Positions 33,275 through 47,614 of a stretch of 64,000 nucleotides of DNA are shown piece by piece. The first letter of the stretch is position 1. The number at the start of each line of letters is the position of its first letter. Under the pieces are notes generated by a model. It made no database searches and was not told the origin of the DNA. It saw only the letters and a program-made list of their open reading frames with translations. The stretch spans positions 1,098,059-1,162,058 of the forward strand of contig JAVKHP010000001.1 in assembly GCA_031459855.1 (NCBI GenBank). The letters run 5' to 3'. A program made the translations under genes and the position numbers. This DNA comes from Armatimonadota bacterium. Lineage in GTDB: Bacteria; Sysuimicrobiota; Sysuimicrobiia; Sysuimicrobiales; Humicultoraceae.

Positions 33275-35254
33275 CTACGCGCCGTCCGGTCGCCAGCCCG
33301 GCCACGCCAGCGATGGCCAGCTGCACAGGTCGGCGCGCCCTGCCAGGAGGGCCGCGGTGACGTCGCCGACGCTGCGCTGCCCGCCCACCAGCGCGGTGGG
33401 GATCCCAACGGCGTGGCGGAGCAGGTCGCTGGTGAACACCTGGGCGACGCCCGCAGGCCACAGCGTCGACACCGTGCGGGCAGCGGCGCGCGGGGGCGGG
33501 ACCACGACGACCAGCCCGCATCCGGCCGCCTGCAGCGCCCGGGCACGGTCCAGCCCGCGGGCAACCTCGTCGTCGTCCCGCGGATCGCGCCACGCCCGGC
33601 ACACCACGGCCAGCGGGCGGCCCGCAGGCCAGGCCCCGCGGGCAGCCCGCACCGTCTGGACCTCGACGGGGCCGTCGAGCACCACCAGGTCCACACCGGC
33701 CTCGGCCAGCGCGGCCAGTCGCTGGGGAATGTCGCAGGGGTCGGTGCGGTCGAGGGCCGCAGATGCCGCGTGGTCCGCATCGTCCCCCGAACCCAGGCGA
33801 TAAGGCGGGCGTCGCGTGGTGGCGCTGCTGTGCGCTGCGTGCGGCCTCTCGTCCTCCTCGCTGTACGCCACGTGCACGCGCACCCCAAGACAGCTCCCTG
33901 CCGCGTGGACCGCCTCGGCCAGCTGGCGCCAGTCCGCCGGCGCATCCGCGAGCACCAGGCCGGCACCATCACGGGCGACCGCTCCTGCACGGTGAGGGGC
34001 GTCCGGGCCGGACGTGAGCTCGGCCACGATCCGGGTACGCAGTCGCAACCCCTCCAGGACCAGCGGTTGCGCGTAGGGCGGTGCGTCCGGTCGGCCGCCG
34101 GCTGCGGCGACGACGCGTGCCACTTCCCCGACCGCCCTTCGATCGCGCACCACGAGAGCGCCGTAGGAAAGCAGCGGCGCCCGGCTGAGGTGGTGGAAGG
34201 AGAACCGGGCCGGCGGTGCCCCCGCAAACCAGCGGAAGTGCTCCCACCACCACCGGCTGGGCTCGGCGGCCTGCTGGAGGCGCGCCACGGCGGGCTGCCG
34301 CTCGCGCTCGTAGGCCTTCAGCGCGCCGGCCAGCGTCGCGTGTCGCCCCAGGGCCTGGGCCAGGGCGATGGCGTCTTCCATGGCCATACGGGTGCCCGAG
34401 CCCACGGAGAAGTGGGCGGTGTGGGCCGCGTCGCCCAGCAACACGACCCGACCCGCGTGCCAGCGGCGGCACCGCACGGTGCGGAAGGTCGCCCAGCGGG
34501 AGTTGTTGGCCAGCAACGGCGCGCCGTCGAGGAAGGGTGCGAAGAGGGCCTCGCAGTAGCGCACGCTGGCCAGATCGGGGGCCCCGGCGGCGCGCGCGAT
34601 CTCGTCGGCGCGGTCGAGCCCGGCCCGACGCCACGTCGCCTCGTCGGTCTCCACGATGACCGTGCTGTGGGTGTCGCTGTAGGGGTACGCGTGGATGCCC
34701 CACCAGCCGTGGGCGTTCTCGGCGAACAGAAACGTCAGGGCGTCGAACACCTTGGTGGTGCCCAGCCAGATGAACCGCGAGCGTCCCGTATGCACCGACG
34801 CACCCAGGGCATCGGCCAGGGCGGTCCGTGCGGCGCTGCCGGCGCCGTCGGCTGCGACGATGAGGTCAGCGTCGGCCAGCGCCGCAAGGGGCGGTGCCTC
34901 CACCTGGAAGCGCAGGTCGGCGCCCAGGCCTGCGGCGCGCTCCCGCAGCAGGCGCAGCAGCGCGGCCCGCGCGATCCCCGAGAAGACGTGGCCGCCGAAC
35001 CGGACCGACGCGCCCCGGTGCCCGTACGCGATGTCCTCCCACTGCACGGCCTGCGCCGTGAACGCGGCGTGCAGGTCCGGGTCGGCCTCGCGCAGGTACC
35101 GCAGGCTGCGTTCCGGGAAGACGACGCCAAAGCCGTAGGTCGCATCGGGCGGGTTGCGCTCGTACACCGTCACCTGGCAGTCCGGGTCCGCCCGCCGCAC
35201 CAGCGCTGCGAAGAACAACCCAGCGGGTCCCCCGCCGATCACCGCGATCCGCAC
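33275..35254 (-). CDS. FAD monooxygenase fused to a degenerate OYE-like domain (salicylyl-CoA hydroxylase family paralogue)
   Basis: The 659 residues start with the FAD-binding GGGPAGLFFAALVRRADP and YERNPPDATYGFGVVFPE. FAD/NAD motifs VAADGAGS and LLGDAAHTAHFSVGSGT follow (about residues 1-380), as in 2-aminobenzoyl-CoA monooxygenase/reductase. The C-terminal half should be an old-yellow-enzyme barrel but is about 70 residues shorter than in the paralogue at 44515. It lacks the catalytic-Tyr motif (GYLLASFLSP there) and the DEYGG motif. Hydroxylase activity is plausible; flavin reductase activity is doubtful. GTG 35254 follows GGAGG by six bases. Confidence 0.78.
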   Translation of the reverse strand: MRIAVIGGGPAGLFFAALVRRADPDCQVTVYERNPPDATYGFGVVFPERSLRYLREADPDLHAAFTAQAVQWEDIAYGHRGASVRFGGHVFSGIARAALLRLLRERAAGLGADLRFQVEAPPLAALADADLIVAADGAGSAARTALADALGASVHTGRSRFIWLGTTKVFDALTFLFAENAHGWWGIHAYPYSDTHSTVIVETDEATWRRAGLDRADEIARAAGAPDLASVRYCEALFAPFLDGAPLLANNSRWATFRTVRCRRWHAGRVVLLGDAAHTAHFSVGSGTRMAMEDAIALAQALGRHATLAGALKAYERERQPAVARLQQAAEPSRWWWEHFRWFAGAPPARFSFHHLSRAPLLSYGALVVRDRRAVGEVARVVAAAGGRPDAPPYAQPLVLEGLRLRTRIVAELTSGPDAPHRAGAVARDGAGLVLADAPADWRQLAEAVHAAGSCLGVRVHVAYSEEDERPHAAHSSATTRRPPYRLGSGDDADHAASAALDRTDPCDIPQRLAALAEAGVDLVVLDGPVEVQTVRAARGAWPAGRPLAVVCRAWRDPRDDDEVARGLDRARALQAAGCGLVVVVPPPRAAARTVSTLWPAGVAQVFTSDLLRHAVGIPTALVGGQRSVGDVTAALLAGRADLCSWPSLAWPGWRPDGA

Positions 35255-38607: not shown

Positions 38608-39075
38608 TCAGCGCGACGGCTCAGAATGCACGGGTCGGATTCCCAGCAGGTCCTGCAGCGCCTCCCGCCCCAGGAACGCCATGTCCATCAGCTCGTGGCT
38701 GGTGCCCTCAAGCAGCGCGATGCGTCGGGCGTCGTCGCGGGACCAGAGCAGCTGCCCGCGCAGCGCCGCACGCCGCACCCCGAGCGGTGCGGTGTTGAGC
38801 ACGACGACCTCGACGGGCAGCCCGACCGCGGTCTCCAGCCGCGCGCTCAGGTCGAGCTGGACGGCCAGGGAGTCGAGCCGTGCCCCGGGGGGTGGCTCGA
38901 CGAACACCGCGACGTCGATGTCCTCGAACGGCCGGTCCTCGACGAACGAGCCGAAGACATAGGCGAAGACCACCGTGGGATCGCGGGCCAGGACGGCGAC
39001 AATGTGCTGGAGGCACCGCCGGCGTTCGTCGGGGGGCAGCGCGTGCAGCGTCCTGATGCCTGGGGACGACGTCAT
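38608..39075 (-). CDS. Nucleotidyltransferase-fold protein (MNT/MntA-like)
   Basis: A 155-residue protein of the minimal nucleotidyltransferase fold. The signature GSFVEDRPFEDIDVAVFV supplies GS and the DxD metal ligands, and a third carboxylate may lie in VEVVVLN. MntA-type members AMPylate and neutralise a HEPN toxin in type VII toxin-antitoxin pairs. No HEPN partner is next to it, so it is either solitary or has another role. ATG 39075 follows a TATAAT element by 24 bases. Confidence 0.75.
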   Translation of the reverse strand: MTSSPGIRTLHALPPDERRRCLQHIVAVLARDPTVVFAYVFGSFVEDRPFEDIDVAVFVEPPPGARLDSLAVQLDLSARLETAVGLPVEVVVLNTAPLGVRRAALRGQLLWSRDDARRIALLEGTSHELMDMAFLGREALQDLLGIRPVHSEPSR

Positions 39076-39099
39076 GGGTCGTCGCCACCTTCGCGCAGG

Positions 39100-39105
39100 A
39101 TTATA
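39100..39105 (-). promoter_or_regulatory. Perfect -10 box upstream of the nucleotidyltransferase
   Basis: TATAAT read on the minus strand (ATTATA at 39100-39105), standing out in the GC-rich background. It ends 24 bases before the ATG at 39075. No convincing -35 is found at 16-18 bases. Confidence 0.45.
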
Positions 39106-39188
39106 CGTCGAGGCGCCCGAGAGGAGCGAGCCGACCGCACCGCATCCATCGCCTGGAGCCCCGGCCGGAGAAAGCCGGTGGGCGGCGT

Positions 39189-39995
39189 TCATCGCTCCAG
39201 GAACGTCCGCGCCTCCCACAGCAGCGGGAAGAACTTCTTCCCCAGCGTCGAGCGCAGGTACTCGACGCCGCCCGAGCCCATGGCGTCGTACCCGTCGCCC
39301 ATGACGCGGGCGACGGTCTTCTGCCCGGTCCCCGGCCGCGCGCCGATCATGCGCTCGACCATGAGGATGTGCCGGTGACGCCAGGCGCTCCACCGCTGGT
39401 CGTAGGCGATCATCGCCTCCAGGAGCTCGTCGAGGTCGGCCAGGGCGGCCTCGCGCTGGATGCGGATGGCCGTCTGGACGATCTCGGCGTCGCTGCCCGC
39501 CGGCAGCCCGCGGCGGCGCAGCACGCCCACGAAGGCGTCCCACAGGGTGGGTTCGGCCAGACGCCGGGCCAGCGCCGCGGCCTGCTCGGGCTCGTCGTCG
39601 AACGAGCGCAGGTACTGGGGTTCCTTGAGCCCTGAGAGGAACTCGATCTCGCGAAACTGTCGGCTCTGGAAGCCGCTGGCGGGCTTGAGCTCGTTGCGGA
39701 ACTCCAGGAAGTCGTAGGGGCGCATGGTCTCGATGACGGCGAACGCGGCCCCCAGGCCGTCGACAATGGTGGTGGCACGGCGCAGCAGGCGGACGGCGGT
39801 GCCGAGGTCGTCGCGGTCGAGGGCCGCGCGCACCGACTCCAGTTCGAACAGCAGCAGCCGGAACCACAGCTCGAAGACCTGGTGGACGACGATGAACTGC
39901 AGCTCGTCGTGGGCCGCGGTCAGACGCTGCTGCAGGCGCAGCAGGTCGTCGACCTTGAGGTAGGCGCCGTAGGTGAGGGGGCCGCCTGGGGGCAT
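39189..39995 (-). CDS. kynA: Tryptophan 2,3-dioxygenase
   Basis: Haem enzyme opening the indole ring of tryptophan to N-formylkynurenine; 268 residues, normal bacterial length. Seen are LTYGAYLKVDDLL, the substrate-binding VHQVFELWFRLLLFELES, the SGFQSRQFREIEF segment and the haem-ligand region WRHRHILMVERMIG. It starts 12 bases after the stop of a small conserved-looking gene, with no good ribosome-binding site, so translation may be coupled. Formamidase and kynureninase, the next enzymes, are not recognised in the window. It probably starts the flow to anthranilate used by the CoA-ligase cluster just upstream. Confidence 0.93.
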   Translation of the reverse strand: MPPGGPLTYGAYLKVDDLLRLQQRLTAAHDELQFIVVHQVFELWFRLLLFELESVRAALDRDDLGTAVRLLRRATTIVDGLGAAFAVIETMRPYDFLEFRNELKPASGFQSRQFREIEFLSGLKEPQYLRSFDDEPEQAAALARRLAEPTLWDAFVGVLRRRGLPAGSDAEIVQTAIRIQREAALADLDELLEAMIAYDQRWSAWRHRHILMVERMIGARPGTGQKTVARVMGDGYDAMGSGGVEYLRSTLGKKFFPLLWEARTFLER

Positions 39996-40007
39996 GGCGC
40001 CCGGGCC

Positions 40008-40214
40008 CTACACGCCCAGCTCGTAGAGCTGCTCGTGCTGGAGCTGGAGGTCGTTGGTGGCCTGCCACAGGCAGGCGAGGGCCTTGCGCACGTTGCGCGC
40101 GGCGCACGGGGGCAGCGTCTCGCGGCGCGCCAGGGCCTTGAGGGCCTCGTACGCGGCCAGCAGGGCCTGCTCGTCGGCGTCCAGCGGCCGGCCCAGCAGA
40201 TCGGTGGTGGTCAT
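40008..40214 (-). CDS. Small protein (68 aa) upstream of tryptophan dioxygenase, unknown function
   Basis: The frame opens with ATG preceded by GGGAGGGG at eight bases, a strong ribosome-binding site, and is 12 bases from kynA. The protein is helical, soluble and charged, with Cys-containing LPPCAARNVRKALACLWQ in the middle and LQLQHEQLYELGV at the end. It matches no family known to me. Location suggests a chaperone, haem-delivery or subunit role for the dioxygenase; this is inference. Confidence 0.7.
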   Translation of the reverse strand: MTTTDLLGRPLDADEQALLAAYEALKALARRETLPPCAARNVRKALACLWQATNDLQLQHEQLYELGV

Positions 40215-40314
40215 CGGTAATCCCCTCCCGCGTCATGCACCCGCCGCGCGGGCCCTGCGGCCGGCGCGACGGTGGTCAGCGGCGGCTCCTGCGGTGTCGT
40301 CGCGCACGGCGCCC

Positions 40315-41664
40315 CTAGCGGCGGTCGTACGCCGCCACCGGCCGGGCGTCGACCAGCCGTTTGGCCTTCAGCTCGAACCGCGGCAGCGTCCCGTGGTCGA
40401 CCCGCTCCACGTTGAAGCGCAGCCCCTCGTGGGCGTCGGCCAGGTCGCGGGCCAGCCGCGCCTGCAGCGCCGGCCACTCGGCCTCGCGGCCGGGTTTGAG
40501 CTCCACCTTGATGGTGATCTCGTCCTGGATGTCGTCCTTGCGCCAGAGGTAGATCTGGAACTCGTCGATGGCGTCGTACTCGCGCACGATGGCCTCCACG
40601 GCCCGGGGGTAGACGTTGGTGCCGCGGACGAGCTTCATGTCGTCCCACCGGCCCCGAATCCCGCCGTCGTAGAGGTCGAACGTGCGCCCGCAGGTGCACG
40701 CCGTGTGCGGCACCTTGACCACCATGTCCTTGCTGCGGTAGCGCAGCAGCGGGATGAAGCCCCGGCCAAACGACGTCACCACCCGCTCGCCCAGTTCCCC
40801 GTAGCCCACGGGCTCACCGCTTGCCGGGTCGACGACCTCTTCGATGAAGTGGTCCTCGATGATGTGGGTGCCGCCCGGCTGGTGGCTGCACTCGAAGATC
40901 ATGATGGTGCCGATCTCGGTCATGCCGGCGGTGTCGCCGCACTTGGCGCCCCACGCCTGCTCGAGCTGCCGCTTGACCGCGGGGATGGACCCGGCGGGCT
41001 CGCCGGAGACGATGAGCTTGTCGACCCGGCTGGCAGCCAGGTCGAGGCCCGCCTCGGTGGCCGCCTGCCAGAGGCGCAGGGCGTAGGTGGGCGTCGAGCA
41101 CACGGTGGTGACACCCATCTCGACGATCTGCCGCACGCGGGCCTCGGTGGTCTGGGCCCCGCCAGGGATGACGAGAGCTCCGATCTTCTCGCAGCAGTAG
41201 TGAGCGCCCCAGAAGCCGATGAACGAGCCGTAGCCGAAGGCGAAGTAGACCACGTCCGCAGGCCGCACCCCAAAGCCCCAGAACCCGTAGCACCACATCT
41301 CCGCGATCCACTCCCAGTCCTTCATGCCGTCGAGCACCCGAATGGGCGTGCGGCCGCTGGTGCCCGAGGTGAGGTGGTAGCGGATGGCGTGGACGGGGTC
41401 GGTGGCCAGCAGGTCGCCGAACATCGGCTGGGCCACCTGCGCCTCCATCCACTCCTCGCGGGTCATGAACGGGATGCGCCGCAGGTCCTCCAGCGTGCGC
41501 AGCTGCTCCGGCCGGAACCTTGCGGCGTCGAACTTCCGCCGGTGGAAGGGGCTGCGGGCGTACGCCCACTCGCACAGGCGCCGCAGTTTGTGCAGCTGCA
41601 GCGCCTGCAGCTCCTCCCGCGGCATGGTCTCCGCTTTCGGGTTCCAGTACGGCGAGGTGCTCAT
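40315..41664 (-). CDS. Aryl-CoA ligase of the phenylacetate-CoA ligase family (candidate 2-aminobenzoate-CoA ligase)
   Basis: Adenylate-forming ligase joining an aromatic acid to CoA; 449 residues. It has the ATP loop YHLTSGTSGRTP, GYGSFIGFWGAHY, DTAGMTEIG and the C-terminal hinge DMKLVRGTNVYPRAVE, as in PaaK. The four neighbours (acyl-CoA dehydrogenase, Rid protein, crotonase, 2-aminobenzoyl-CoA monooxygenase type) and tryptophan dioxygenase suggest anthranilate as substrate. Phenylacetate or salicylate remain alternatives. ATG overlaps the acyl-CoA dehydrogenase stop. Confidence 0.85.
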   Translation of the reverse strand: MSTSPYWNPKAETMPREELQALQLHKLRRLCEWAYARSPFHRRKFDAARFRPEQLRTLEDLRRIPFMTREEWMEAQVAQPMFGDLLATDPVHAIRYHLTSGTSGRTPIRVLDGMKDWEWIAEMWCYGFWGFGVRPADVVYFAFGYGSFIGFWGAHYCCEKIGALVIPGGAQTTEARVRQIVEMGVTTVCSTPTYALRLWQAATEAGLDLAASRVDKLIVSGEPAGSIPAVKRQLEQAWGAKCGDTAGMTEIGTIMIFECSHQPGGTHIIEDHFIEEVVDPASGEPVGYGELGERVVTSFGRGFIPLLRYRSKDMVVKVPHTACTCGRTFDLYDGGIRGRWDDMKLVRGTNVYPRAVEAIVREYDAIDEFQIYLWRKDDIQDEITIKVELKPGREAEWPALQARLARDLADAHEGLRFNVERVDHGTLPRFELKAKRLVDARPVAAYDRR

Positions 41665-42815
41665 CGCGGCTCACGCCCCACCAGTTCGCGCGCAATGACG
41701 ATGCGCTGGATGTGGCTGGTGCCCTCGTAGATCTGCAGGCCCTTGACGTCGCGGAGGAGGCGCTCGACGGGGTACTCGCTGGAGTAGCCCCGCCCGCCGT
41801 GGATGAGGACGGCGTCGTTGGCGGCCCGCACGGCGGCCTCCGTGGCGAAGAGTTTGGCGATGGCTGTTTCCTTAGTGGTCCGGGCCCCCTGATCCTTCAG
41901 CCAGGCCGCCCGGTAGACCAGCAGGCGGGCCGCCTCCACGCTGGCCGCCATGTCGGCCAGGTGGCCCTGGATCATCTCGAAGTCGGCCAGGCGCTGCCCG
42001 AACTGGCGCCGGTCGCGGGTGAAGGCGATGCAGGCGTCCAGGCACGCCTGGGCCAGCCCCACGGCCCCGGCGGCGACGCCCAGGCGCCCGTGGTCGAGGG
42101 CCCCCATCGCCACCTTGAAGCCCTCGCCCTCGCCGCCCAGCAGGTGGTCTTTCGGCACCCGCACGCCGTCGAGCACGATGCGGGCGTGGTCGGCGGCCCG
42201 GTGCCCCAGCGGCACGCCCGGCATGGGCTCGCGCCGGAAGCCGGGCGTGTCGGTGGGCACCAGGAACGCGCAGATGCCCCGGTGGCGCAGCGCGCGGTCG
42301 CGCGTGGCGAAGACCACCGCCAGGTGGGCCAGGTTGCCGTTGGTGATCCAGAGCTTCTCGCCTCGCAGGACGTAGGCGTCGCCGACGTCCTCGGCGGTCG
42401 TCTCCAGCCCGGCGGCGTCCGAGCCGGCGTTGGGCTCGGTGAGGCAGTAGCACCCGATCCACTCGCCGCTGGCCAGCCGCGGCAGGTAGGCGCGCTTCTG
42501 CGCCTCGGTGCCCCAGTCCCGCAGGCACAGGCTCACCAGCCCGGCGTGCACCGCCAGGAAGCCGCGCACCGACGCGTCCACGCGGCCGAGCTCCTCGTAG
42601 ACCAGCGCGAAGCTCACGTAGTCCATGCCGGCGCCACCGTACGCGGGGTCGATGGGGCCGGCCAGGAAGCCGAGCTCGCCCATGCGGCGGACGAGGTGCA
42701 CGGGAAACCGGCCCTCCGCATCGGCCCGTCGGACGAGCGGGGCCACCTCCTCCTGGGCGAAGCGGCGCGCCCGTTCCTGGACCTCGCGCTGCGCGGGGGT
42801 GAGGGCGAAGTTCAC
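41661..42815 (-). CDS. Acyl-CoA dehydrogenase (CoA-catabolic cluster)
   Basis: FAD-dependent dehydrogenase of 384 residues. Motifs: YCLTEPNAGSDAAGL, KLWITNGNLAHLAVVFA, DRRQFGQRLADFEMIQ and the catalytic base in QIYEGTSHIQRIVIAREL. It starts with GTG overlapping the Rid-protein stop and its stop overlaps the ligase start, so the three genes are translated together. In an anthranilyl-CoA route it would act on the reduced ring CoA ester before or during ring opening. The exact substrate is not known. Confidence 0.88.
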   Translation of the reverse strand: MNFALTPAQREVQERARRFAQEEVAPLVRRADAEGRFPVHLVRRMGELGFLAGPIDPAYGGAGMDYVSFALVYEELGRVDASVRGFLAVHAGLVSLCLRDWGTEAQKRAYLPRLASGEWIGCYCLTEPNAGSDAAGLETTAEDVGDAYVLRGEKLWITNGNLAHLAVVFATRDRALRHRGICAFLVPTDTPGFRREPMPGVPLGHRAADHARIVLDGVRVPKDHLLGGEGEGFKVAMGALDHGRLGVAAGAVGLAQACLDACIAFTRDRRQFGQRLADFEMIQGHLADMAASVEAARLLVYRAAWLKDQGARTTKETAIAKLFATEAAVRAANDAVLIHGGRGYSSEYPVERLLRDVKGLQIYEGTSHIQRIVIARELVGREPR

Positions 42816-43228
42816 GGCAGCACCGCGAACCCTTCCAGTTCGACCAGCGCCTCGTCGCGGAAGAAGCCGCTGACCTCGAACAGGGCCATGGCCGGGTAGT
42901 ACCCGCCGAAGTACCGCCGGAACACCTCGCCCAGCGGGCGCAGGTGCGCCAGGTAGGCTTGGCGGTCGCGCACGAAGATGGTGAGCTTGGTGATGTGTTG
43001 CATGGTCCCGCCCGCGGCCTCGACCACCGCCTGCAGGTTCGTGAGCACCTGCTCGAACTGCGCCACGAGGTCGCCGGGCGCGACGATGCGGCCGGTGGCG
43101 TCGCTGGCGTCCTGGCCGGCCAGGAATAGCAACCGGCCGCCGGTGGTCACGATGCCGTGGCTGAACCCGCGGGGCGGCGGCAGGGTCGGTGGGTTGACGA
43201 TCTGGCGTGCTGGCGAGTCGACGCTCAC
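42812..43228 (-). CDS. Rid-family protein (YjgF/YER057c/UK114) lacking the usual catalytic arginine
   Basis: The 138 residues have the chorismate-mutase-like Rid fold: GRLLFLAGQDAS, VLTNLQAVVEAAGG, HITKLTIFVRD and the C-terminal VELEGFAV. In imine deaminases (RidA) an Arg follows Pro-Ala near the end (PARS). Here the aligned sequence is YPAMALFEV, with Met114 in that place. It may bind or hydrolyse an enamine by another mechanism, as for some Rid members in aromatic pathways. GTG 43228 has GAGGAGGGAG upstream and is chosen over the longer frame. Confidence 0.82.
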   Translation of the reverse strand: MSVDSPARQIVNPPTLPPPRGFSHGIVTTGGRLLFLAGQDASDATGRIVAPGDLVAQFEQVLTNLQAVVEAAGGTMQHITKLTIFVRDRQAYLAHLRPLGEVFRRYFGGYYPAMALFEVSGFFRDEALVELEGFAVLP

Positions 43229-43354: not shown

Positions 43355-43415
43355 CCCTACCGCCCCACGACGTTCCCTACCGCCCGGCGAACTTTCCCTA
43401 CCGCCCCACGAACTT
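43355..43415. repeat. Triplicated gene end (20-21 bp units)
   Basis: The hexamer CCCTAC with the following CGCCC-CGAACTT-like sequence starts at 43355, 43375 and 43396. Read on the minus strand, the last unit encodes the C-terminal KFVGR and stop of the crotonase gene, and the two others repeat this end just downstream of it. Confidence 0.8.
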
Positions 43416-44189
43416 CGGCTCGGTCTTCGCCTTGAACGCCTCATAGAAGAGGCGGTGGTCTTCGGCCATCAGCATCAGCGCCTGGGCCTGCGCTTCGGCC
43501 TCCAGCGCCGCGTCCAGGTCCATGTGCTGCTCGTGCAGGAGCATGCGCTTGGTCATCCCGATCGCCTGCGTCGGGCCGTCCGCGAGCCGACGCGCCCACG
43601 CGCGGGCGGTCGGCAGCAGGTCGTCGTGGGGCACCACGCGGTTGACCAGGCCGTAGCGCTCGGCGGTGGCGGCGTCGATCACATCGCCGAACAGCAGCAG
43701 CTCCGCCGCGCGGCCCGTGCCGACGAGCCGTGGCAGCAGGTACGCCGCGCCCATGTCGGCGCCGGTGAGCCCCACCTTGGTGAAGAGGAAGGCGAAGCGC
43801 GCCCGCTCGGAGGCCAGGCGCAGGTCGCTGGCCAGCGCCAGCACCGCGCCGGCACCGGCCGCCATGCCGTTGATGGCCGCGATGATGGGCCGGTCGAGCA
43901 TGCGCATGGCGCGCACGACGGCGCCCGTCATGCGGGTGAACTCCAGGTGGCCGCGCACGTCGCGCCGGAGGAGCTCGCCGATGATCTCGTGCACGTCGCC
44001 GCCCGAGCAGAACCCCGCGCCGGCGCCGGTGAGGATCACCGTACGCACGGCCTCGTCGTACCGCAGGCCCTCCAGGAGGTCGCGCAGCTGCGCGTACACG
44101 GTGAAGGTGAGGGCGTTGAGGACTTGCGGGCGATCCAGGGTGATGGTCGCCACGCCGTCGGCCACCTCGTAACGGAACTCGTAATCCAT
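43398..44189 (-). CDS. Crotonase-family enzyme (enoyl-CoA hydratase/isomerase)
   Basis: Acts on an enoyl- or ring-CoA ester; 263 residues. Oxyanion-hole motifs are GAGFCSGGDVHE and INGMAAGAGAVLALASDLR. The two glutamates of classical hydratases are absent: the positions hold Val116 and Lys138. Asp145 (GLTGADMG) is kept, as in several isomerases and ring-processing members. It is thus probably not a plain fatty-acid hydratase. ATG 44189 has GGAGGAGG upstream. It precedes the Rid-ligase group on the same strand by 169 bases. Confidence 0.86.
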   Translation of the reverse strand: MDYEFRYEVADGVATITLDRPQVLNALTFTVYAQLRDLLEGLRYDEAVRTVILTGAGAGFCSGGDVHEIIGELLRRDVRGHLEFTRMTGAVVRAMRMLDRPIIAAINGMAAGAGAVLALASDLRLASERARFAFLFTKVGLTGADMGAAYLLPRLVGTGRAAELLLFGDVIDAATAERYGLVNRVVPHDDLLPTARAWARRLADGPTQAIGMTKRMLLHEQHMDLDAALEAEAQAQALMLMAEDHRLFYEAFKAKTEPKFVGR

Positions 44190-44514
44190 CGCCGCCTCCT
44201 CCAGGGGTGCTGCGGCTGCCTCTCCCCGAGCCTCGACCGCGGGGCACGGGACCTACGGGGGCGTCGTCGCCGGCGCGCGGAGCCCGCAGCCCGGTCGGTC
44301 TCCCGGGGGCGCTGCGACTTCTTTCCGCCGGCCCGCGGGCGAGTCCTGTCGCGCGCCAGGGGTTCGACGGTCGCGGGGCGGTACGGGGTACGAGGCCGGT
44401 CGCCCGGTGGCCGCACGATGGGGGTCGCCCGGTGCTGGTGGGCACCCGGAGCATGACGCGTCGCAGGCGCGTTGAGCAGTTCTCTCGCGCAGTCGACGGT
44501 CACCCGCGCAGGGC
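44190..44514. other. Intergenic region inside the catabolic cluster
   Basis: 325 bases between the monooxygenase end and the crotonase start, both on the minus strand. It holds a strong ribosome-binding site near 44195-44203 and a short direct repeat GGTCGCCCGGTG at 44398 and 44423 (25-base period). No gene or confident promoter was seen. Confidence 0.4.
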
Positions 44515-46767
44515 CTACGCCGCGGCGACCTCGGGCGGGTCCATCAGGCACAGGTCCGCGCGGCCCGCAGCCAGGATCGTGTTGGCTTCGTCCGCTGTCA
44601 CCACGTAGCCGCCGGCGAGCACGGGCACTCGCGCTTCGTTGCGCACGAGGTCTGCCAGGGCGGTGAGGAACCCGCGGCCGTAGGCCGGGTGCCCCTCGGG
44701 GGTCGTCTGCCCCGCTTGCACCCACACCAGGTCCGCGCCCGCCGCGACGAGGGCGCGGGCCGCGTTCACGGCGTCCTGGGGCTCCAGCCCGCCGGGCACG
44801 CAGTCGGAGGCGGAGAACGCCACCGCCAGCGGGCGGTCGGTCGGCCAGACCGCCCGCACGGCCGCCACGACTTCCAGGGGGTAGCGCAGCCGTGCGTCGA
44901 TGGCCCCGCCGTACTCGTCGCTGCGCCGGTTCGTCAGCGGCGAGAGGAAACTCGCCAGCAGGTACCCCAGGCCGGCGTGCACCACCAGCAGGTCGAAGCC
45001 GGCGTCGGCGGCGCGGGCCGCAGCGGCAGCGAAGGCGTCGCGCACCGCGGTCATCGCCTCGCGCGTCATCGCCAGCGGCGTCTGGCAGTCCTTCCCGTAC
45101 GGGATGGCCGATGCCGCCAGCACCGGCCACGCGCCCGCGCGCAGCGGACGGTCGAGCCCTTCGTGGCGCGGCCGCATGGCACCACGCCGCCCCGCGTGGC
45201 CGAGCACGATGCCCAGGGCGGCCGGGGTCTGCTGTCGTACCGCGCGGACGATCGCCTGCCAGGCCTCGGTGTGGAGGTTGGCGTAGAGCCCCGGGTCGCC
45301 GGGGGTGACCCGGCCGTCGGCGGCCACGGCCACGGGTTCGGTCAACACCAGCGCCGCGCCGGCCGCCGCGCGCCGCGCCAGCGCCGCGCGGTGCACCGCG
45401 CCGGGCAGCCCGCCGTGGGCGGCGTCGGTGGGGCGGCAGGCGAGCACGACGCGGTTGCGCAGGTGCACGCCGCGCAGCCGCAGCGGTACGAGCAGCGGTG
45501 GCGGTGCCACGAGCGGGGCCGGGGGCGCGATCGGTGCGGCCATGTCTTCACGGGAAGACCCGTCGACGCGCCCGCCCTCCGAGGCGCGGACAGCCGTTGG
45601 CGGAGGCTGTACGACCGCCTGGGGGGCCTGCGCGGCGAACCACCGGTCCACCGCCCCCACGAACTGCGGATCGCGCACCCGCAGCGCGTCGTACGAGACC
45701 CGCCCGCTGCGCGTCATCAGGTGGAAGGCGAACTGCGGCGGGGCCAGGTGCAGGTAGCGCCGCAGGTGCTCGAAGTAGGCCTGGCTCTCCGCCGCGGCCT
45801 GCTGCAGCGCCTCCACGGCGGGCCGGCGCGTCGCCTCGTACTCGTTGAAGGCCGCCTCGCGGTCGCGGTGGGCCTCGAAGGCGCGCGCGAGCGCCGCCGC
45901 GTCCTCCATGGCGAGCTTGGTGCCCGAGCCGATGGAGAAGTGCGCGGTGTGGGCGGCGTCCCCCAGCAGCACGACGTTGCGGTACCACCACGTCGCGCAC
46001 CGCACCGTCACGAAGTTGATCCACCGGGAGTTGTTCGACAGCAGCGGCCGGCCGCCCAGGAAGTCGTCGAAGAGGCGCTGGCAGTAGGCCAGGCTCGTCG
46101 CCTCGTCGGCATCCGCCAGTCCCGCGGCGCGCCAGACGTCCTCGGCGCACTCCACGATGAACGTGCTGGTGGTGCCGTCGAACGGGTAGGCGTGCACCTG
46201 GAACAACCCGTGGGGACCCTCGCGGATGATGAACGTGAACGCGTCCAGCCAGCGCGTGGTGCCCAGCCAGATGTACCGCGCCCGGCCAACGTCCAGCGTG
46301 GGCTTGAAGGCCCGGGCGAAGGCCCGGCGCACCCCGCTGTTGACCCCGTCGGCCGCGATCACCACGTCGGCGTCCAGGTAGGGTGTGGGGTCGGCGATCT
46401 CCGCCCGAAAGCGCAGCTCCACGCCAAGCTCGTCGCACCGCCGCTGCAGGATCTCCAGGAGCGTCGTGCGTCTGATGCCCGCAAAGGGCTGGCCGCCGCA
46501 GCGCAGCACGTCCCCCCGGTAGTGGATGTCGATCACGTCCCACAGGACGAACCGGTCGGTGATCTCGCGGTAGGTCTTGAAGTCGGCTTCCTGGAAGCCG
46601 GCCAGCGTGCGCTCGGAGAAGACGACGCCCCACCCGTAGGTGGCGTCGGGCGGGTTGCGCTCGAAGACGGTCACCTGGCGGCGGGGGTCGGCCTTCTTGA
46701 GCAGCAGGGCGGCGTACAGCCCCGCGGGGCCGCCGCCGATGACCACGACCTTCACGGGGACCGGCAC
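44515..46767 (-). CDS. 2-aminobenzoyl-CoA monooxygenase/reductase or salicylyl-CoA 5-hydroxylase (FAD monooxygenase-OYE fusion)
   Basis: A bifunctional flavoenzyme of 750 residues, the length of the characterised fusions. The N-terminal FAD monooxygenase (1-400) shows GGGPAGLYAALLLKKADP, RNPPDATYGWGVVFSE, VIAADGVNSGVRR and LLGDAAHTAHFSIGSGTK. A Pro-rich linker leads to an FMN-binding barrel (about 425-750) with LGHAGRRGAM, LGYLLASFLSPLTNRRSDEYGG and a C-terminal GRADLCLM. It would hydroxylate an aryl-CoA and reduce the ring. With tryptophan dioxygenase and an aryl-CoA ligase nearby, 2-aminobenzoyl-CoA is favoured over salicylyl-CoA. It starts with GTG one base after the flavoprotein gene. Confidence 0.86.
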   Translation of the reverse strand: MPVPVKVVVIGGGPAGLYAALLLKKADPRRQVTVFERNPPDATYGWGVVFSERTLAGFQEADFKTYREITDRFVLWDVIDIHYRGDVLRCGGQPFAGIRRTTLLEILQRRCDELGVELRFRAEIADPTPYLDADVVIAADGVNSGVRRAFARAFKPTLDVGRARYIWLGTTRWLDAFTFIIREGPHGLFQVHAYPFDGTTSTFIVECAEDVWRAAGLADADEATSLAYCQRLFDDFLGGRPLLSNNSRWINFVTVRCATWWYRNVVLLGDAAHTAHFSIGSGTKLAMEDAAALARAFEAHRDREAAFNEYEATRRPAVEALQQAAAESQAYFEHLRRYLHLAPPQFAFHLMTRSGRVSYDALRVRDPQFVGAVDRWFAAQAPQAVVQPPPTAVRASEGGRVDGSSREDMAAPIAPPAPLVAPPPLLVPLRLRGVHLRNRVVLACRPTDAAHGGLPGAVHRAALARRAAAGAALVLTEPVAVAADGRVTPGDPGLYANLHTEAWQAIVRAVRQQTPAALGIVLGHAGRRGAMRPRHEGLDRPLRAGAWPVLAASAIPYGKDCQTPLAMTREAMTAVRDAFAAAAARAADAGFDLLVVHAGLGYLLASFLSPLTNRRSDEYGGAIDARLRYPLEVVAAVRAVWPTDRPLAVAFSASDCVPGGLEPQDAVNAARALVAAGADLVWVQAGQTTPEGHPAYGRGFLTALADLVRNEARVPVLAGGYVVTADEANTILAAGRADLCLMDPPEVAAA

Positions 46768-46768
46768 C

Positions 46769-47614
46769 TCATGCGACCACTTCGGCGAGGCGCTCGAGCT
46801 GACGCAGGTCGGCCACGGCGGGGAACAGCACGAGCTCGTGGCACCCGGCGTCGGCGTACCCCCGGATGAACTGCACGATCGCCTGCGGGGTGGTCAGCAG
46901 CGCCGCCGCGATCCGCTCGGCGAAGGGCCCGGTGAAGGTATAGTAGTCCTTCATATAGCGGATCCCCGCGTCGATGGTGGCGTCGTCGCCCAGCGCAAAG
47001 TACCCCTGGCCCCACAGCAGCGGCTCGCCCGGACGGCCGGCGTCGATCCAGGCGGCGCGGGCGCGGTCGGCGGCCCGGGCGAAGGCGCGCGGCGGGCCGC
47101 CACCGTGCACGTAGCCGTCGGCGTAGCGCGCCGCGCGGGCGAACGCCTCGTCGCTCAGCCCGCCGACCAGCAACGGTGGGCCCTGGGGTCGCAGCGCCCG
47201 CGGCACGGCCGGACTGCCTTCCCACAGCGTCCGCAGCGCTGCCAGCTGCTCGGAGAGCACACGGCCCCGGGTGCGGTGGTCGACGCCAGCCACGGTGTAG
47301 TCCTCGTGGCGCGCGCCCACGCCCAGGCCCACCACCAGCCGCCCGCCAGAGAGCGCGTCCAGCGAGGCCAGGCTCTTGGCCAGCAAAGCGGTGTTACGCA
47401 GTGGCGCCACCACGATCATCGTGGCCAGCCGCACCCGCCGGGTGACGGCGGCCGCGGCGCCCAGCGTCACCAGGGGCTCGAAGCTGTCGTAGGGCAGCCG
47501 GTCGATGACCCCCAGGCTGGAGAACGGCCCGGCGTCGGCGCGTTGCGCCCAGGCCAGCAGCAGGTCACCGGTCGCGCCGGGGATGCCGCTGGGCAGTCCG
47601 ACCCCTACCTGCAT
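46769..47614 (-). CDS. LLM-class flavin-dependent oxidoreductase (luciferase-like)
   Basis: A luciferase-fold flavoprotein of 281 residues using FMN or F420. Typical parts are GLPSGIPG at the N-terminus, RVRLATMIVVAPLRNTALLAKSLA, LSGGRLVVGLGVGARHEDY and PLLVGGLSDEA. It precedes the aryl-CoA monooxygenase by one base and is probably co-translated with it. It may supply reduced flavin or perform a linked oxidation. ATG 47614 follows GGGAGATCC, a ribosome-binding site that is repeated twice more upstream. Confidence 0.82.
   Translation of the reverse strand: MQVGVGLPSGIPGATGDLLLAWAQRADAGPFSSLGVIDRLPYDSFEPLVTLGAAAAVTRRVRLATMIVVAPLRNTALLAKSLASLDALSGGRLVVGLGVGARHEDYTVAGVDHRTRGRVLSEQLAALRTLWEGSPAVPRALRPQGPPLLVGGLSDEAFARAARYADGYVHGGGPPRAFARAADRARAAWIDAGRPGEPLLWGQGYFALGDDATIDAGIRYMKDYYTFTGPFAERIAAALLTTPQAIVQFIRGYADAGCHELVLFPAVADLRQLERLAEVVA

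Follow-up and report, generated by a model that had tools for sequence, protein, structure and literature searches.

Within the window (by which we mean the whole stretch of 64,000 nucleotides analysed here), positions 42812-43228 of the minus strand encode a Rid-family protein of 138 amino acids, which starts with GTG and shows the sequence ...YYPAMALFEV... near the end of its domain. The gene is part of an operon whose members, all of them on the minus strand, are transcribed in the following order: a luciferase-like, LLM-class (F420/FMN) oxidoreductase (46769-47614); a homologue of 2-aminobenzoyl-CoA monooxygenase/reductase (ACMR, 44515-46767), where a FAD monooxygenase is fused to an old-yellow-enzyme domain; an enoyl-CoA hydratase family protein (43398-44189), which is a candidate ring hydrolase; the Rid protein; an acyl-CoA dehydrogenase (41661-42815); a PaaK-like aryl-CoA ligase (40315-41664), a candidate anthranilate-CoA ligase; and a tryptophan 2,3-dioxygenase (39189-39995), after which an MntA-like nucleotidyltransferase (38608-39093) is found on the same strand. 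The initial annotation had described Rid as co-translated with the dehydrogenase and the ligase, which is supported by two overlaps of 4 bp, one between the Rid stop and the GTG start of the dehydrogenase (GTGA) and the other between the dehydrogenase stop and the ligase start (ATGA). To these genes we add the tryptophan dioxygenase after the ligase, together with the ACMR homologue and the hydratase upstream, in the same direction. Two other open reading frames of the region were discarded as genes: the one at 43441-44454 shadows the actual hydratase gene, and the one at 38608-40236 is mostly shadow, the region being made up of the nucleotidyltransferase and, in another frame, the tryptophan dioxygenase.

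The ACMR homologue keeps PF01494 and PF00724 in one protein of 750 amino acids, the two-domain arrangement of ACMR, and reaches 916 bits with NF006101, below the cut-off of 1078. The hydratase scores above the cut-off of NF006107, the ligase reaches 246-255 bits with NCBIfam models, below their equivalog cut-offs, and the tryptophan dioxygenase 216 bits with TIGR03036, below the cut-off of 391. An orthologue of the PaaK-like ligase adjoins Rid in loci L019, L020, L022 and L025. As for the LLM oxidoreductase, it adjoins ACMR in Chloroflexota, haloarchaea and the window's phylum (loci L005, L006, L015-L020, L022-L024, L028-L030 and L034), with the F420 genes cofH and npdG close to it in Natronosalvus, and it is absent beside ACMR from the proteobacterial and actinobacterial clusters examined, save for two unlike LLM genes near the Comamonas cluster. 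A second ACMR-like protein is encoded in the window (33275-35254, minus strand), whose monooxygenase half is 49-52% identical to the first ACMR and whose C-terminal half, without a Pfam match, looks like an eroded old-yellow-enzyme barrel.

The gene for tryptophan 2,3-dioxygenase ties the operon to tryptophan and, therefore, probably marks the pathway as one from tryptophan to anthranilate. The aryl-CoA, which the initial annotation had taken for 2-aminobenzoyl-CoA, is very probably this compound, given the dioxygenase in the operon and the kynureninase alongside it in relatives. In several relatives of the same phylum kynureninase comes after the dioxygenase, either beside Rid or ACMR or in the same region, and one or both of these enzymes adjoin Rid or ACMR in relatives, haloarchaea, Thalassospira, Sagittula and Aminobacter. 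The TIGR01814 kynureninase model gave no match in the window's own genome, where the best candidate is a divergent protein, 37% identical to the enzyme of a relative and encoded 1.5 Mb away. The haloarchaeal anthraniloyl-CoA clusters also contain TrpB, the beta subunit of tryptophan synthase (L005:13854-15026, above the TIGR00263 cut-off; L006:14051-15205; L028 and L030), which possibly acts there on tryptophan or indole in their breakdown.

The arginine site and the Rid pocket

In a profile search the window protein matches Ribonuc_L-PSP (PF01042) at 5.2e-19, which places it in the Rid superfamily. Its match to TIGR00004 of NCBIfam (7e-17) stays below the 106-bit cut-off of this model, so that the protein is not called a standard RidA, and the RidA-type NCBIfam models all match it weakly and below cut-off. 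The structure predicted from 25 aligned sequences (rows of the window and of genome contigs, those of plasmid records being left out) has a mean pLDDT of 93.7 and finds 175 PDB matches at E<=0.001, the best of them RidA/UK114 with a TM-score of ~0.84, although a predicted fold by itself says nothing on activity.

Met114, whose codon lies at 42887-42889 of the minus strand, aligns on the Arg of E. coli RidA (Arg105), TdcF, RutC and YoaB in a multiple alignment, and it takes the same position in HMMER alignments to solved Rids. Multiple and profile alignments thus confirm the replacement of the RidA Arg by Met114 that had been read from the single protein, and they rule out a misalignment hiding a nearby Arg. 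Moreover, the residue is not there by chance, because the same site holds Met (27 sequences), Leu (4) or Val (1) in an alignment of 32 relatives, which come from several bacterial phyla and haloarchaea. A search for an Arg at the functional position found it absent across the entire group of relatives with these residues, hereafter the Rid-M clade, for which Met, Leu or Val is a signature, ruling out a one-off inactivating mutation as well. Invariant in the 32 rows are Gly38, Gln57, Asn64, Tyr92, Gly100, Pro112 and Glu130, and Glu132 is present in 30 of them. The equivalent of RidA Tyr17 (residue 22) is Phe or Tyr in 32/32, with Phe22 and both Glu130 and Glu132 in the window protein, which hence keeps the counterparts of Tyr17 and Glu120 of the RidA pocket and lacks that of Arg105. 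In the actinobacterial Rid-M proteins of loci L007 and L009, Glu132 is replaced by Gln or Ala; they sit with thioesterase, cupin and fumarylacetoacetase-type hydrolase (FAH) genes, and their substrate may differ.

Distribution of the Rid-M clade and its link to ACMR

In a tree of 67 Rids, with limited sampling of other Rid subfamilies and few alignment columns, the 39 sequences with Met, Leu or Val at the Arg site form a single clade (support 99/94), and the switch at this site is one change in 200 of 200 bootstrap trees. The clade is separate from the E. coli Rids and the other Rids of the window's phylum (Asn, Thr, Ser or Arg at the site), and E. coli YjgH, a Rid7 with Trp at the Arg site, stays outside it on a long branch whose position is uncertain. 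A search with Rid alone, keeping one genome per species, returned 24 loci, 23 of them in the Rid-M clade, from Chloroflexota, Acidobacteriota, Armatimonadota, Myxococcota, Planctomycetota, Pseudomonadota and haloarchaea, to which a search of plasmids added roseobacters, Thalassospira, Deinococcus, plasmid pAL1 of Arthrobacter Rue61a and Tsukamurella. Public plasmid records label the Rid genes of ACMR clusters as RidA family. By its sequence, the Arg-less Rid appears to belong to a distinct subfamily of wide distribution, tied to ACMR.

A two-domain ACMR is encoded in 21 of the 23 genomes with a Rid locus of the clade, in most cases adjoining Rid, and the remaining two are metagenome-assembled drafts. 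In the window's phylum, among 43 genomes that all belong to one order, Rid-M and the two-domain ACMR occur in the same 10, which represent three families. Among Halobacteria, Rid-M is found in 7 of 294 genomes, and 7/7 have ACMR, with the gene pair within 25 kb. The naive p values of this linkage are 5e-10 for the phylum and 5e-11 for Halobacteria, both ignoring shared ancestry and therefore smaller than the true ones. The pattern recurs in separate domains of life, and the association of Rid with the ACMR pathway, initially suggested for one operon, holds at a larger scale, the Rid gene tracking ACMR across phyla.

A few loci depart from this arrangement. Two Microvirga megaplasmids (L010 and L014) encode a Rid that has the PAM motif; in L014, which is annotated, no ACMR was found beside Rid, which adjoins spermidine-synthesis and transcription-elongation genes, and in L010 there is no ACMR match near Rid. 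The ACMR cluster of Comamonas odontotermitis shows no Rid within 9 kb. On plasmid pSG53 of Sulfitobacter guttiformis, it is not Rid-M but an Arg-bearing Rid2-like protein (L128:3692-4033, minus strand) that adjoins ACMR, a possible replacement of Rid-M.

The presence of Rid-M follows nitrogen, given that ACMR homologues lacking Rid are mostly found with salicylate-type ligases or gentisate-type genes, where no amine is involved. Six Halobacteria have an ACMR homologue without Rid, with identities of 44-49% versus 51-58% in the Rid carriers, and conserved beside these six genes are a sodium symporter and a ligase of the DHB/salicylate type, whose closest match is 2,3-dihydroxybenzoate-AMP ligase, joined in one case by a double-cupin protein and an FAH. 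By sequence, such a gene set is as would be expected for a route from salicylyl-CoA to gentisate. Cupriavidus taiwanensis combines ACMR with cupin and FAH genes in the absence of Rid; similar cupin and FAH genes occur on pAL1 of Arthrobacter Rue61a, but with Rid, and the ligase of this strain has been shown experimentally to act on anthranilate (PMC3534580). ACMR, kynureninase and Rid-M are found combined in Sagittula, Aminobacter and Thalassospira.

A putative deaminase for the ACMR product

The 2-aminobenzoyl-CoA pathway has been known since about 1990. The initial annotation had singled out its deamination as a step not assigned to a gene and, indeed, no enzyme is named for it in the pathway literature that we found; a description of the ACMR product as 2-amino-5-oxocyclohex-1-ene-carbonyl-CoA gives no enzyme for its deamination either (PMC4539516). 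From what is observed, namely the sequence of the window Rid, its clade and the linkage to ACMR, we infer with a probability of roughly 0.6 that this protein serves the 2-aminobenzoyl-CoA pathway as its dedicated enamine deaminase and acts on that compound. Tryptophan would be converted into anthranilate and then 2-aminobenzoyl-CoA, from which ACMR would produce the above beta-enamino thioester. The Rid protein, whose known relatives are trimers, would add water at C2 and free ammonia, yielding 2,5-dioxocyclohexane-carbonyl-CoA, a beta-keto thioester. Its ring could then be opened by the crotonase-family enzyme, the gene for which lies immediately upstream of Rid, with beta-oxidation as the next stage. 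In Arthrobacter Rue61a on anthranilate there appears a C7H8O4-CoA, read by the authors as cyclohexanedione-carboxyl-CoA (PMC3534580), which is the formula of the deaminated product. Within the Rid family, RutC deaminates the beta-enamino acid 3-aminoacrylate (PMC8113886), and the 2-aminomuconate deaminase AmnE offers a precedent for intermediates of aromatic amines (PMC6742747).

RidA, RutC and AmnE each carry the Arg (PMC4433059, PMC8113886, PMC6742747), and its absence has been equated in the literature with the absence of deaminase activity (PMC4433059, PMC8113886). The Arg-less Rids assayed so far, which are the Rid7 of S. enterica and the Arg-to-Ala variants of RidA and RutC, were all inactive, in assays that used free carboxylate substrates (PMC4433059, PMC8113886), and so the counter-argument that can be drawn from them rests on free acids. 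Also at odds with a deaminase of this pathway are the two actinobacterial proteins lacking Glu132, the Microvirga Rids apart from ACMR, the Comamonas ACMR cluster lacking Rid and the divergent, distant kynureninase candidate of the window genome. In TdcF and hp14.5, the Arg contacts the carboxylate of the substrate (PMC4433059). In the proposed substrate of Rid-M this group would be a CoA thioester, which may be why the Arg was lost, with Met, Leu or Val at the site lining a pocket suited to an uncharged ring or thioester. With the carboxyl masked in this way, loss of the Arg need not mean different chemistry. The initial annotation had concluded that the chemistry must differ or that the role must be binding, which is not supported as stated, given the contact of the Arg with the carboxylate in RidA/TdcF (PMC4433059); the simpler reading is that enamine hydrolysis proceeds as in those proteins, with a hydrophobic residue where they have the Arg.

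It is also conceivable, though unlikely, that Rid clears a toxic side product of ACMR, since at low NADH this enzyme would give 5-hydroxyanthraniloyl-CoA, whose oxidation could yield a quinone imine open to hydrolysis by a Rid. The first of these is indeed an ACMR side product, C7H7NO3-CoA has been found in vivo (PMC3534580), pre-emption of damage is the classical Rid role (PMC4433059), and both the linkage with ACMR and the missing Arg would be accounted for equally well. Such a role, however, leaves the nitrogen loss of the main ACMR product unexplained, while in vivo a CoA ester does occur whose formula matches the deaminated product (PMC3534580). An action on a later, ring-opened enamine or after thioester cleavage, rather than on the ACMR product, seems rather improbable: AmnE works on a ring-opened enamine (PMC6742747), and the actinobacterial Rid occurs with thioesterase, cupin dioxygenase and FAH instead of hydratase and dehydrogenase, but ring-opened amino acids have free carboxylates that would favour an Arg, and no ring-cleavage dioxygenase was found in clusters of the window's type.

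We give little credit to a protective role in which, in the manner of classical RidA, the protein would deal with 2-aminoacrylate or imino acids that escape from PLP enzymes of tryptophan breakdown (kynureninase, TrpB). Rid lies directly before tryptophan dioxygenase and kynureninase in one genome (G035), and TrpB is present in haloarchaeal clusters; nevertheless, carboxylate substrates of this kind need the Arg (PMC4433059, PMC8113886), a canonical RidA with Arg is encoded separately in the window genome (G000:C1:100646), and the common partner of Rid is ACMR, with no kynureninase beside Rid in pAL1, Ruegeria or the window operon. Finally, a role without catalysis of deamination (in which the protein would bind or channel the CoA ester, act in regulation, or cleave RNA, as echoed by older 'translation inhibitor' names) would fit Arg-less Rids without known deaminase activity and an inactive Rid7 (PMC4433059, PMC8113886), but is highly improbable in view of the active-site Tyr/Phe, Glu and pocket glycine conserved across phyla and domains and of the Arg-bearing Rid2-like protein by ACMR in Sulfitobacter guttiformis, which suggests that Rid chemistry is needed.

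Returning to a deaminase for the ACMR product, the chances are about even for its broader form, in which Rid-M proteins would be a putative Arg-less subfamily of enamine deaminases for CoA thioesters, separate from other Rids and conserved in haloarchaea as well as several bacterial phyla, and would supply the enzyme still missing for ammonia release in the aerobic degradation of anthraniloyl-CoA. If true, this would be the first function proposed for an Arg-less Rid, and the nitrogen-release step of the pathway would be assigned. The clade offers a concrete, single-substrate test of the rule on Arg absence. Moreover, a Rid-M gene near an ACMR-like gene makes a simple genomic marker that helps to tell anthraniloyl-CoA from salicylyl-CoA enzymes, which at present share one name in databases.

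Comparison with known systems

With the 2-iminopropanoate deaminases RidA/TdcF, the window Rid shares the predicted fold (TM 0.84) and the equivalents of Tyr17 and Glu120, and it differs from them in having Met (Leu or Val in some clade members) for Arg105, in a small number of extra residues behind the 'VRD' strand and in lying in one catabolic operon. The Arg is absent from Rid4-Rid7 as it is from Rid-M, no function being known for these subfamilies; when compared, Rid4 and Rid7 have Trp at the Arg position (PMC4433059), as opposed to the Met of the window Rid, and in Rid5 and Rid6 the residue there is variable. RutC, from the E. coli rut operon, is likewise a Rid whose catabolic operon includes a flavin monooxygenase, is proposed to act on a beta-enamino carbonyl compound as well, and shares with the window Rid the conserved Glu at the end, the identity of the two being about 26% in the structural match; RutC, however, has and needs Arg104, and its substrate is a free carboxylate (PMC8113886). 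The AmnE-type 2-aminomuconate deaminase is another Rid-family protein of an aromatic-amine pathway that releases ammonia from an enamine, but it has Arg117, a ring-opened dicarboxylate substrate and a hexamer with an extra loop (PMC6742747), and its match to the window Rid is weak (6izh at 1e-6).

The anthranilate pathway of Azoarcus evansii and Arthrobacter Rue61a resembles the window cluster in its combination of ACMR, an aryl-CoA ligase and a Rid gene. The window cluster differs from those two systems in its PaaK-like ligase and its additional LLM oxidoreductase, and a gene for an SDR or a MarR protein was not found there. A Rid gene inside an ACMR cluster is hence not new: reportedly, the A. 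evansii cluster as listed by Schuehle et al. in 2001 already contained a 'putative translation inhibitor protein', with no role given. In general terms, Rid proteins have already been suggested to play a part in aromatic regulons (PMC6449761), and the literature searched, which did not include the original A. evansii and pAL1 papers, yielded nothing joining RidA/YjgF with the aminobenzoyl-CoA pathway. As far as we found, what appears to be new is that the Arg-less Rids linked to ACMR in different domains of life make up one clade, of which the Rid of Arthrobacter pAL1 is itself a member, together with the difference between clusters that handle an amine and those that do not, and the proposed reason for the loss of the Arg.
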